From NCBI RefSeq assembly GCF_000718135.1, contig NZ_JOEM01000019.1, positions 1 to 64,000 of the forward strand: a DNA stretch of 64,000 nucleotides, in the 5' to 3' direction. Source of the DNA: Streptomyces cyaneofuscatus (GTDB taxonomy: Bacteria > Actinomycetota > Actinomycetes > Streptomycetales > Streptomycetaceae). This document shows, in pieces, positions 46,723-51,297 of this stretch (position 1 is the first letter of the stretch; each line of letters opens with the position of its first letter). Both the position numbers and the translations under genes were made by a program. The notes under the pieces are model-generated. The model was not told the origin of the DNA. It searched no databases and saw only the letters and a list, made by a program, of their open reading frames with translations.

Positions 46723-48894
46723 TCACCCCTGAACCGCGAGGACCAGCGGGCACACCCCCTGGGCTCCGGCCCGCCGCAGCAGCCGCGCGGCGACGGCCAG
46801 CGTCCAGCCGGTGTCGGACAGGTCGTCCACGAGCAGGACCGGACCGTCGGCGGACCGCAGCGCCTGTGCCAGCTCCGGCTCGACGGTCAGGGCCTCGTGC
46901 AGGGCCCGCACCCGCTGGGCGCTGTTGGTCTGCGACATCGTCAGATCCTCGGTGCCCGGCGCGTACGTCACCGTTCCGAGCAGCGGCATCCGGCCGATCT
47001 CGGCGATGCGCCGGCCGAGCGACTCCACCAACTGCGGCCGGCGGCGCGAGGCGACGGTGACCACGCCGACCGGCCGGGGAGCGGCGTCGGGGGCCCCGGA
47101 GGCCCAGCCGCCCGGGCCCCTGGCCCAGTCCGTGAGCACGGTGACCACGGCGTCCGTGACATCGTCCGGAACGGGCGCGTCCGGTGCCTGCGCCGCCAGC
47201 ATGGGGCGCAGCCGGTTGCCCCAGCCGATGTCGGAGAGCCTGCCCAGCGCCCGTCCGGCGGAGGAGAGTTCACCGGCGGGGATACGTCCCTTGAGGTCGA
47301 CGCCCACCGCGGAGAGACCGGTGGGCCACATCTTGCGGGGAGCCACCTCCACCCCCGGCCGGCCCAGCTCGCTGCGGGCGCCGTCCAGGGCCGCGGTGGA
47401 GACCTTCTCGTCGAAGCGGGCGCCCGCGCAGTTGTCACAGCGCCCGCAGGCGGTGGCCTCCTCGTCGTCGAGCCGCAGCCGCAGGAACTCCATCCGGCAC
47501 GCCGTCGTCGTGGCGTAGTCGCGCATGGCCTGCTGCTCGGCGGCCCGCTGCCGGGCGACCCAGGCGTAGCGCTCGGAGTCGTAGACCCACGGCTCGCCGG
47601 TGGAGATCCAGCCGCCCTTGACCCGCTTCACCGCGCCGTCGACGTCCAGCACCTTGAGCATCGTCTCCAGTCGGGTCCGCCGGAGGTCGACCAGAGGTTC
47701 CAGCGCGGGCAGCGAGAGCGGCCGCTCCGACCGGGCCAGAACGTCCAGGGTGCGGCGCACCTGCTCCTCGGGAGGGAAGGCGACCGAGGCGAAGTACTGC
47801 CAGATCGCCTCGTCCTCCTTGCCGGGGAGCAGCAGCACCTCGGCGTGCTCGACCCCGCGCCCCGCGCGTCCGACCTGCTGGTAGTACGCGATGGGGGAGG
47901 ACGGCGAGCCCAGGTGCACGACGAAGCCGAGGTCGGGCTTGTCGAACCCCATGCCCAGTGCGGAGGTGGCCACCAGCGCCTTGACCCGGTTGGCCAGCAG
48001 GTCGTCCTCCGCCTGCTGGCGGTCCGCGTTCTCGGTCCGCCCGGTGTAGGAGGTGACCGGATGGCCGTTCTGGCGCAGGTAGGCCGTGACCTCCTCGGCC
48101 GCCGCGACCGTCAGCGTGTAGATGATCCCGGAACCGGGCAGCTCCCCGAGGTGGTCGCCCAGCCAGGCCAGCCGGTGCGCCGCGTTGGGCAGCTGGAGCA
48201 CGCTCAGGCTGAGGCTCTCCCGGTCCAGCGGACCACGCAGCACCAGCGCGTCCGTGCCCGCTCCCGTGCCCAGTTGTTCCGCGACGTCCGCCGTCACGCG
48301 GGCGTTGGCCGTGGCGGTGGTGGCCAGCACCGGCACGCCGGTGGGGAGATCGGCGAGCATGGTGCGCAGCCGCCGGTAGTCAGGCCGGAAGTCGTGCCCC
48401 CAGTCGGAGATGCAGTGGGCCTCGTCGACCACCAGGAGACCCGTCGCGGCGGAGAGCCGAGGCAGCACCTGGTCCCGGAAGTCGGGGTTGTTCAGCCGCT
48501 CCGGGGAGACCAGGAGGACGTCGACCTCACCGGCCGCCACCTCGGCCTGGACGCTCTCCCACTCCTCCGTGTTGGACGAATTGATGGTGCGGGCGCTGAT
48601 CCCGGCCCGCGCGGCCGCCGCGACCTGGTTGCGCATCAGCGCCAGCAGCGGTGAGACGATCACGGTCGGGCCGCTGCCCTGCGCGCGCAGCAGCGAGGTC
48701 GCCACGAAGTAGACGGCGGACTTGCCCCATCCGGTGCGCTGCACGACCAGCGCCCGGCGCTTGTCGGCGACGAGCGCTTCGATCGCCAGCCACTGGTCCT
48801 CACGCAGCCTCGCCTCACCCGTGGCATCCCCGACGAGGCGGGCGAGGACGGAGTCGGCCGAAGCCCTGAGTGCTGCACGATCTGCGTTGGTCAT
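46723..48894 (-). CDS. recQ: RecQ helicase with C-terminal phosphoribosyltransferase-like domain
   Basis: 723 residues. Helicase part: Walker [14 protein letters not shown] (near 50), [15 protein letters not shown] in [22 protein letters not shown], motif [11 protein letters not shown], and a zinc-binding RQC segment (CRMEFLRL ... ACGRCDNC, near 480-505). After a winged-helix region the last ~110 residues resemble a phosphoribosyltransferase, with [27 protein letters not shown] fitting the PRPP loop. ATG 48894 has GGAGGG immediately adjacent, too close for normal use, so the start may be a few codons upstream (TTG/GTG). Divergent from the DUF4192 gene across a large palindrome. Confidence 0.88.
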
Positions 48895-48937
48895 CCCTCC
48901 ATGCAACCCGATGACGACCACAAACCGCGAACGCCGG

Positions 48938-48973
48938 GCCACCCCTGTGGATAACGTTATCCACAGGGGTGGC
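48938..48973. promoter_or_regulatory. Perfect 36-bp palindrome with two inverted DnaA boxes
   Basis: Arms 48938-48955 and 48956-48973 are exact reverse complements. Each holds a consensus 9-mer: TGTGGATAA (48946-48954) and TTATCCACA (48957-48965), head to head and separated by CG. The flanks extend as CACCCC...GGGGTG. It lies between the recQ and DUF4192 starts. TTATCCACA is the strongest E. coli-type DnaA box; Streptomyces boxes are usually TTGTCCACA. Confidence 0.75.
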
Positions 48974-49004
48974 GGGACGAGGCGGCCCACGGGACCGTCG
49001 AGTC

Positions 49005-50411
49005 ATGAACAAGCACCACGAATCAACCGGCCCGTCCGACGGTCAGCAGATCACCCTGCGCGGCCCCGCCGAACTCGCCGACGCCCTCCCGTATCTGATG
49101 GGATTCCACCCCAGCGACAGCGTCGTGATGGTGGCGCTGCACGGCGGCCGGGGCCGGTTCGGCGGCCGGCTCCGGCTCGGCATTCCGCGGGAGCCCGGTG
49201 AATGGGGACCGGTCGCCGAACAGCTGGCGGAGAGCCTGATCTCGGGGAGCGAGCGCCGCGACGGACGGCCCGACGCGATCGTGATCTTCCTCTGCCAGGA
49301 CTCGCCGGACGGCGAGAGCGGCCCCCTGACGATGGAGCGCCTGCGGCCGTTCGCCCAGAGCCTGCGTACGGCGTGCGGAGCGCTGGACGTGCCCGTGCTC
49401 GAAGCGCTCTGCCTCTCGGACGGCCGGTACTGGTCGTACTGCTGCCCCGACGGCCGGTGCTGCCCGCCCCAGGGAAAGCCCCTGGCCATGCCCGGTACGA
49501 CGGTGATGGCCGCCGCGGCCGCCTATGCGGGGATCCGGGTACGGGGGACGCTGCGCGACATGGAGGCGCGGCTCGCTCCCTGGCGGACGCCGGACGAGGT
49601 CTCCGCACAGCTGCGGGCGCTGGACCGGGCCGCGCCCTCGCTGGTGCCCCGGATCCTGGACGAGCGGGTGAAGGCCGAGGTGGCCAAGGAGACCCTCGCG
49701 CTCGCCCGCACCCTGATGGACCGCCTCGGGCGGACGCCGCCCGCTCCGGAAGCCGTCTCCGACCTCGGGGACGACAAGCTGATCGACCAGGACGAGGCCG
49801 CCGCGGTCATCCTCGGCCTCCAGGACCGGGAGACCCGGGACAAGGCCGCGGTCTGGATGGAGGGCCCCGAAGGTCACCGTGCGCTGAGGCTGTGGCGGAC
49901 CCTCGCCCGGCGCTGCGTCGGACCGTACGGCGAGCACGCGGCGGCTCCGCTGACCCTGGCCGGCTGGGTCTCCTGGTCCACCGGCGACGAGCCCGGCGCC
50001 CGGGTCGCGCTGGCCATGGCGCTCCGCGCGGACCCGGAGTACACGTTCGCGCAACTGCTGCACCGGGCGTGCAACGAGGGGCTGGACCCGGAGACCCTGC
50101 GCCGCTGCCTGCGCGGTGACGGCGACGGCGGTGAAGGGCCGGAGACGGAGGTCGCGGGCGCCGAGGAGACCGGGGCGGCGCTGGGGGCCGGGGGCGCCAG
50201 GGGGCCCGCCCTGCATGTCCGCAGGGTCAGGCCGGCGGCGAACCGGGCCCGGCGGCGCGCGAGCGGGCGGCGGGTGACGGACACCGGGGGGACCGCGCCG
50301 GCGCCCGGTTCGGCCAGGCCCGGTACGGCCGGGCCCGGGCCGGTGGCCGCCGGGCGCCGCGTGCGCGACGTCCGGCGGTACGGCAGGCGCGGCGCCGGGA
50401 CGCGCCGCTGA
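49005..50411 (+). CDS. DUF4192 domain protein
   Basis: 468 residues, cytoplasmic. The conserved domain begins ITLRGPAELADALPYLMGFHPSDSVVMVALHGGRGRFGGRLRLGIP (residues ~13-58) and continues through a Cys-rich loop SYCCPDGRCCPPQGKPL (near 145-162) to about residue 380; the last ~90 residues are Arg/Gly-rich and basic. The family is actinobacterial and of unknown function. The C-terminal tail could bind nucleic acid (inference). Its start lies 31 nt beyond the 36-bp palindrome. Divergent from recQ. Confidence 0.85.
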   Translation: MNKHHESTGPSDGQQITLRGPAELADALPYLMGFHPSDSVVMVALHGGRGRFGGRLRLGIPREPGEWGPVAEQLAESLISGSERRDGRPDAIVIFLCQDSPDGESGPLTMERLRPFAQSLRTACGALDVPVLEALCLSDGRYWSYCCPDGRCCPPQGKPLAMPGTTVMAAAAAYAGIRVRGTLRDMEARLAPWRTPDEVSAQLRALDRAAPSLVPRILDERVKAEVAKETLALARTLMDRLGRTPPAPEAVSDLGDDKLIDQDEAAAVILGLQDRETRDKAAVWMEGPEGHRALRLWRTLARRCVGPYGEHAAAPLTLAGWVSWSTGDEPGARVALAMALRADPEYTFAQLLHRACNEGLDPETLRRCLRGDGDGGEGPETEVAGAEETGAALGAGGARGPALHVRRVRPAANRARRRASGRRVTDTGGTAPAPGSARPGTAGPGPVAAGRRVRDVRRYGRRGAGTRR

Positions 50412-50553: not shown

Positions 50554-51297
50554 ATGCCGCCCTACGACCCGTCGAACTTCCCGCCCTTCGCCGTCACCGT
50601 GGACCTGGTCGTGCTCACGGTGCGCCGTCACGCTCTCTGCGCGCTGGTGGTCCGCCGCGGGGAAACGCCGTTCCAGGGCCGGTGGGCGCTGCCCGGCGGT
50701 TTCGTCAGGGCCGACGAGGATCTCGGGTCCGCGGCGGCGCGTGAGCTCGTCGAGGAGACGGGGCTGTGCGCCCACGATCCGGCGAAGCCCGCCGTGGGCA
50801 ACGGCGCGCACCTCGAACAGCTGGCCACCTACGGGGACCCGGCGCGGGACCCCCGGATGCGGGTCGTCAGCGTGGCGCACCTCGCGCTCGCCCCTGATCT
50901 GCCCGCGCCCCGGGCGGGCGGGGACGCCAACAGCGCCCGCTGGGCACCCGTGGAGGACCTCCTCAGGGAGGGCGAGCAGGCCACACCGCTCGCCTTCGAC
51001 CACGCGCGGATCCTCGCCGACGGGGTGGAGCGTGCCCGCTCCAAGATCGAGTACTCCTCGCTGGCCACGGCGTTCTGCCCGCCGGAGTTCACGGTCGGGG
51101 AGCTGCGCCGGGTGTACGAGGCGGTGTGGGGCGTGGTCCTCGACCCGCGCAACTTCCACCGCAAGGTCACCGGCACCCCCGGCTTCCTGGTGCCCTCCGG
51201 CGGGACCACCACACGGCAGGGCGGCCGGCCCGCGCAGCTGTTCCGGGCCGGTGCGGCCACGGTGCTCAACCCGCCGATGCTGCGGCCGGAGGTCTGA
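50554..51297 (+). CDS. NrtR-like Nudix-domain transcriptional regulator
   Basis: 247 residues. The N-terminal Nudix-like domain (about 12-150) contains VDLVVLTVRRHALCALVVRRGETPFQGRWALPGGFVRADEDLGSAAARELVEETGL; the Nudix box is GGFVRADEDLGSAAARELVEETG, with REL-EE largely kept. The C-terminal ~90 residues are a winged helix (FTVGELRRVYEAVWGVVLDPRNFHRKV), the layout of NrtR, which represses NAD-synthesis genes and responds to ADP-ribose. No NAD gene is adjacent, so the target may differ. A dyad overlaps its promoter, suggesting autoregulation. Confidence 0.85.
   Translation: MPPYDPSNFPPFAVTVDLVVLTVRRHALCALVVRRGETPFQGRWALPGGFVRADEDLGSAAARELVEETGLCAHDPAKPAVGNGAHLEQLATYGDPARDPRMRVVSVAHLALAPDLPAPRAGGDANSARWAPVEDLLREGEQATPLAFDHARILADGVERARSKIEYSSLATAFCPPEFTVGELRRVYEAVWGVVLDPRNFHRKVTGTPGFLVPSGGTTTRQGGRPAQLFRAGAATVLNPPMLRPEV

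Follow-up and report, generated by a model that had tools for sequence, protein, structure and literature searches.

A candidate DnaA box at a fixed distance from the start codon of DUF4192 genes in Streptomyces

Comparison of DUF4192 upstream regions across Streptomyces revealed that what is conserved at the site described here is a single box on the coding strand of DUF4192, TTATCCACAGG, rather than the 36-bp dyad in which this box lies in Streptomyces cyaneofuscatus. The dyad, a perfect palindrome, sits in the 110-bp gap between the divergent start codons of a recQ-like helicase gene and a DUF4192 gene (Table 1), within a window of 64,000 nucleotides, meaning the whole stretch of DNA that was analysed. 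It is probably an abutting inverted pair of DnaA boxes in a DnaA-controlled DUF4192 promoter, a reading drawn from sequence comparison, which suggests a tie between DUF4192 and chromosome replication. With a box held at almost the same distance from its start codon in nearly all Streptomyces examined, and with boxes in other families too, DUF4192 is a concrete candidate DnaA target, and the site would link a widespread protein of no known function to chromosome replication.

The initial annotation, made from the letters of the window, had described a perfect 36-bp palindrome between recQ and DUF4192 with two exact DnaA boxes placed head to head, and re-reading of the sequence bore out this description. 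Pairing ends before positions 48937 and 48974, scoring by script also gave 36 bp, and the two copies of TTATCCACA inside the dyad face each other across a 2-bp gap. The DnaA-box consensus is TTRTCCACA, and the Streptomyces DnaA-box consensus is TTGTCCACA. In the 64-kb window TTATCCACA occurs twice, both times within the palindrome; dinucleotide shuffles of the window contained a mean of 0.02 copies, with none of 100 shuffles reaching two. The pattern TGTGGAYAANNTTRTCCACA is present as a single copy in the source assembly (7.9 Mb, 126 contigs), even with two mismatches allowed.

Table 1 Features of the recQ–DUF4192 region, with positions counted from the first letter of the window
Feature	Position	Strand	Remarks
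recQ-like helicase gene	46723..48894	-	ATG at 48894; divergent neighbour, not a conserved partner of the boxes
Perfect palindrome	48938..48973	.	36 bp, reads GCCACCCCTGTGGATAACGTTATCCACAGGGGTGGC, self-reverse-complementary
Second (inverted) putative DnaA box, TTATCCACA	48946..48954	-	2 bp from the anchored box; variable in relatives
Anchored putative DnaA box, TTATCCACA	48957..48965	+	39 bp 5' of the DUF4192 ATG
Conserved form of the anchored box, TTATCCACAGG	48957..48967	+	On the DUF4192 coding strand
Putative -35 element, GGGAC	48974..48978	+	Genus consensus CGGAA, -32 to -28 of the ATG; presumed ECF-like
Putative -10 element, CGTC	48996..48999	+	Genus consensus SGTC, -9 to -6 of the ATG
DUF4192 gene	49005..50411	+	ATG at 49005; 468 aa; PF13830, E 1.8e-87; presumed regulatory target

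The position of the box relative to DUF4192 was analyzed in 142 Streptomyces genomes, comprising three sets of DUF4192 upstream regions (103 + 7 + 32) that were not selected for TGTGGAYAANNTTRTCCACA; the largest set combined the best recQ and DUF4192 matches with 60 further fetched loci. An exact TTRTCCACA ends 39–42 bp before the DUF4192 ATG in 138 of these genomes, at 39 bp in 44, 40 bp in 87, 41 bp in 5 and 42 bp in 2, and this anchored box is TTATCCACA in 131 cases and TTGTCCACA in 7, the search having required exact TTRTCCACA. The four exceptions among the 142 are two loci with one mismatch (L085 and L093), one with inverted boxes in place of the anchored box (L395) and L081, where no box within one mismatch was found in the 4.1 kb scanned. 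Genome G045, which showed no box in one 300-bp stretch, was re-read as L370. About 55 further genomes with a DUF4192 match lie outside the 142 count, and 11 of them carry TGTGGAYAANNTTRTCCACA. A freer search, in which any mismatch was allowed and sites were scored against TTATCCACA and TTGTCCACA, gave an exact box in 99 of 103 regions, another single change in two and a poor match in two, one of the poor rows (L121) being due to a start codon miscalled by the script; the anchored exact box is present in both L121 and L139, the latter also with a miscalled start. In the profile of 102 box-anchored sequences TTATCCACAGG is near-invariant, partly by construction, since anchoring allowed T/C, T/C and A/G at positions 1–3 and required TCCACAG. 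Most variation in the anchored box is an exchange of A and G at position 3, as DnaA boxes tolerate. The longer pattern TGTGGAYAANNTTRTCCACA is present in 34 of 199 Streptomyces genomes, and DUF4192 adjoins it in 29 of the 30 loci fetched, L011 (G185) alone lacking DUF4192.

The location of the palindrome between the two divergent start codons would also suit a DnaA site controlling recQ, or both genes, and the initial annotation had proposed that it couples recQ to replication. The two genes were compared in 12 genomes in which both are on one strand and not divergent, chosen by eye among the matches listed, so that others may exist (G114, G065, G165, G158, G143, G152, G132, G090, G189, G117, G175 and G135). 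An exact TTRTCCACA precedes DUF4192 in all 12, whereas the 300 bp upstream of recQ contain no box within one mismatch in any of them. On this comparison recQ was rejected as the regulated gene: the site goes with DUF4192 rather than recQ. Control of recQ, or of both divergent genes, is thus very unlikely, with some effect on recQ being possible where the genes are divergent. The recQ upstream regions (3' ends of L328–L339) have in common a TTGTCAGTGCCATCGGGTTGCATGG-like block immediately 5' of the start codon, which is possibly a recQ promoter element. The C-terminus of the RecQ-like helicase gives a weak phosphoribosyltransferase-like match (PF00156), below the curated cut-off.

The symmetry of the palindrome is far less conserved than the anchored box. 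Loss of the palindrome from close relatives had been named in advance as evidence against the site; the 36-mer is indeed absent from them, but the boxes are kept, the anchored one exactly in 138 of 142 genomes, so that this refuting condition applies to the 36-mer and not to the boxes. The arms outside CCTGTGG/CCACAGG are not kept in most relatives. In Streptomyces sp. CB00316 (L221), which encodes an identical DUF4192 protein, one base change outside both boxes breaks the 36-mer and leaves both boxes exact, and in G005 the dyad is 24 bp. Among the fetched loci, the exact 36-mer was found beyond the source genome's own loci only in S. iranensis (L260), with a DUF4192 protein of 62% identity. 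In 35 genomes with boxes 1–3 bp apart, the outer arms form 8–10 pairs in 5 (G000, G125, G114, G065 and G165), 2 pairs in 18, and 1–7 pairs in the other 12. Outer pairing across these genomes exceeded the dealt-anew expectation at position 4 (15 versus 11.8), position 5 (13 versus 9.4), position 6 (19 versus 11.5), position 11 (16 versus 11.8) and, slightly, position 13, and fell below it at six positions (7, 8, 9, 10, 12 and 14). The 36-mer was rejected as the conserved unit on the counts of outer pairs in these 35 genomes. We infer that the excess pairing reflects completion of the palindrome in a few strains, not a kept structure, and that the additional symmetry completing the 36 bp here probably arose incidentally, through a process such as template switching at a quasi-palindrome.

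A perfect dyad of 36 bp might fold back on itself, and together with the excess outer pairing at positions 4, 5, 6 and 11 this would fit an RNA hairpin, a cruciform or a terminator without any role for DnaA. Such a structure is scarcely credible here: no T-run follows the palindrome, and the dyad is broken in most relatives, by boxes 12–47 bp apart, by the presence of a single box or by TTGTCCACA partners. Among the 35 genomes with close pairs, the outer arms stop at two pairs in 18, and six outer positions pair less than expected.

Of 102 Streptomyces genomes, 50 have an exact inverted second box (27 TTATCCACA and 23 TTGTCCACA) and 66 have one within one mismatch, compared with 0.05% and 0.9%, respectively, in shuffles. 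The second box is not exact in the other 52, and about half of the Streptomyces genomes examined have one clear box only; a same-strand exact second box occurs in 3 of 102. Exact partners lie anywhere from 1 to 47 bp from the anchored box. With one mismatch allowed, the most frequent spacings are 2 bp (n = 23), 1 bp (n = 11), 24 bp (n = 8), 32 bp (n = 4) and 13 bp (n = 3), followed by 12, 33, 3, 47, 43 and 42 bp (n = 2 each) and 22, 34, 67, 16 and 59 bp (n = 1 each). Among the genomes with close exact pairs, 24 of 35 have 2 or 3 bp between the boxes. The reading as DnaA boxes, made in the initial annotation, is supported by these features: the anchored box scarcely varies apart from an A or a G as its third base, and its partner is TTATCCACA or TTGTCCACA at many spacings.

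The same annotation had suggested, as an alternative, the operator of an unrelated dimeric protein, possibly DUF4192 itself, with a half-site that resembles a DnaA box. The perfect dyad in the window, the locking of one half-site to the start codon and the GG kept beyond the 9-mer in the conservation profile would be in keeping with this. Half-site spacing as variable as that seen here, with the second site so often inexact, misfits a rigid dimer operator, while independently placed DnaA boxes can vary in this way. The variation in sequence is likewise that of DnaA boxes, TTATCCACA or TTGTCCACA, and the 20-nucleotide core of the palindrome also occurs shortly upstream of dnaA at two Exiguobacterium loci (see below). 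For DUF4192 as its own regulator, the fold matches listed for the protein include weak matches to nuclease folds but no helix-turn-helix-type regulator. An operator of either kind is unlikely, and the DnaA-box reading is preferred.

E. coli DnaA in vivo prefers box pairs 2–3 bp apart, in a study that gives TTATCCACA as the DnaA-box 9-mer (PMC11317965), and this spacing is matched by the window, with 2 bp, and by the 24 genomes with close pairs noted above. The E. coli double motif in that source is built in tandem, whereas the DUF4192 boxes are inverted, range widely in spacing and often lack the second member. Set beside the preference of E. coli DnaA for pairs, the many single-box genomes speak against the DnaA reading.

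A search of the genome collection for the exact 20-mer TGTGGATAACGTTATCCACA gave 107 stretches. Among the matches listed (80 of 107), 35 of 36 Streptomyces loci have DUF4192 39–40 bp away, and in the 36th (L223) the sequence ends on the DUF4192 side. The other 27 stretches comprise 15 without DUF4192 and 12 with it, 11 of these at 39–40 bp and one (L326) at 268 bp by alignment. In Exiguobacterium, the 18 loci among the matches listed each carry 4–9 copies of TTRTCCACA, counting the two of the palindrome, in a span reaching 600 bp to both sides. The gene adjoining the 20-mer is dnaA, identified by Pfam, in two of the three Exiguobacterium loci checked (L235 and L245, at 103 and 102 bp, with 6–7 boxes within 600 bp), which argues for the DnaA-box reading; the third, L253, lies instead between a histidine phosphatase gene and a DegV gene. 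A second kind of Exiguobacterium palindrome, with four boxes, was observed at L253, L267, L273, L289, L297 and L300. The 20-mer loci outside Streptomyces and Exiguobacterium are mainly cyanobacterial, and several have similar surroundings, such as flanking blocks that resemble CCAGAACG and AATGGCA (L228, L231, L237, L244, L246, L257, L269, L270 and L281). In the cyanobacterial locus L228, the 20-mer lies inside a predicted ORF, with no further TTRTCCACA within 600 bp.

Downstream of the anchored box, the conservation profile places 23 bases between GGAA and GTC, a distance similar to the spacing in ECF sigma-factor promoters. This ECF-type arrangement of the CGGAA and SGTC blocks suggests a leaderless promoter whose -35 element lies just downstream of the box; an alternative is a weak Shine-Dalgarno sequence (GNGA) combined with a promoter further upstream. 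From a leaderless promoter, the transcript would start at the ATG, yielding a leaderless mRNA, and the anchored box would span about -49 to -41. DnaA would bind the anchored box, perhaps more firmly where a second box abuts, and would thereby tie DUF4192 transcription to the replication cycle. A position of about -45 is activator-like and favours activation, so that DnaA is weakly indicated as an activator of DUF4192, and repression is possible.

DnaA is described as a transcription factor that acts as activator or repressor at promoters including those of dnaA and nrdAB (PMC8203912), and dnaA autoregulation in S. lividans is cited in the same source. The DUF4192 site resembles the DnaA-regulated promoters described there in having consensus boxes in a promoter away from oriC. 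It would differ from them in its target, an unstudied actinomycete gene, and in a box position that is fixed throughout the genus, with boxes in other families too. The 9-mer is of the same kind as in the Streptomyces oriC, reported to contain 19 DnaA boxes (PMC3411110), against one or two at the DUF4192 promoter.

The source genome contains 52 copies of TTRTCCACA in total, compared with 11 for the pattern read backwards. Outside the window, TTATCCACA occurs at 19 sites, 17 of which fall outside ORFs as called by a simple rule of length and GC3. Because most of the TTATCCACA sites are intergenic, the DUF4192 site appears to belong to a small group of intergenic DnaA-box sites, which possibly represent a Streptomyces DnaA regulon. 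Genes near the other sites (L352–L369) include dnaB and those for a DEAD-box helicase, a MoxR-type ATPase and a LuxR-type response regulator, and several others have no evident tie to replication. A DnaA titration site had also been raised in the initial annotation. Titration sites like datA and DARS are clusters of several boxes, whereas here two exact copies of TTATCCACA are all that the 64 kb contain. A titration or reactivation site of this kind would accord with consensus boxes on contig C19, away from contig C3 with its densest group of boxes. With one or two boxes at the site, held at a strict distance from a start codon, it is extremely improbable.

Beyond Streptomyces, 121 of 148 genomes from the class have PF13830, including 11 that are Streptomyces. 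Upstream regions were compared in 61 non-Streptomyces genomes, the best-scoring of 110, so that the rates may not hold for the rest: in 18 an exact TTRTCCACA lies at a distance of 60–200 bp 5' of the beginning of the Pfam domain (single-base shuffles, 0.04%), and a box within one mismatch is present upstream of DUF4192 in 37 (single-base shuffles, 1.4%), with none within one mismatch in the remaining 24. Many of the non-Streptomyces genomes keep only a core such as GTCCACAG, and these, like the 24 without a box, weigh against the DnaA reading. In the family that holds Jiangella (f19), an exact box is present upstream of DUF4192 in 8 of 10 genomes. Upstream boxes are thus found again at DUF4192 genes of other actinomycete families. 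In 8 of the 10 f19 genomes (L180, L184, L185, L187, L193, L195, L199 and L209), two boxes or near-boxes on one strand are separated by exactly 29 bp. A survey of plasmid-borne DUF4192 genes covered four of eight plasmid records. On a 2.8-Mb Streptomyces plasmid, a DUF4192 copy of 65% identity is preceded by TTGTCCACA and an inverted TTTTCCACA, and none of three divergent plasmid genes (S. chartreusis, S. microflavus and Nocardiopsis) has a box.

DUF4192 is predicted to consist of a RadC/MPN-like N-terminal domain, TPR-like helices and a disordered tail. Its alignment with RadC/MPN (JAB) fold proteins shows 8% identity, and it differs from these by the added TPR-like C-terminal part; the histidine-rich JAMM metal motif, judged by eye, was not seen. 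A profile search of PDB sequences with DUF4192 gave no convincing relative. With weak nuclease-fold matches listed, such as RuvC (E 0.025), contact with nucleic acids is conceivable. A phage or defence origin was rejected, with no PHROGs or PADLOC match at E 1. In the literature searched, to the extent of the text it provides, DUF4192 is named in one paper only, which describes DNA repeats 5' of Duf4192, DprA and ParB on Arthrobacter plasmids (PMC10494377), and no link between DnaA and DUF4192 was found, a mention by locus tag alone being outside the reach of such a search. More tentatively, DUF4192 might be an ancient actinomycete replication or repair factor and belong to the most widely retained part of an actinobacterial DnaA regulon; acting through the anchored box, DnaA would switch it in step with the replication cycle, and DUF4192 in its turn would act on initiation or at stalled forks. 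Two near-invariant cysteines, C147 and C153, lie downstream of a conserved DGRWWSY motif in DUF4192, and the gene is followed by one for a Nudix protein with an NrtR-type winged-helix domain (50554–51294).
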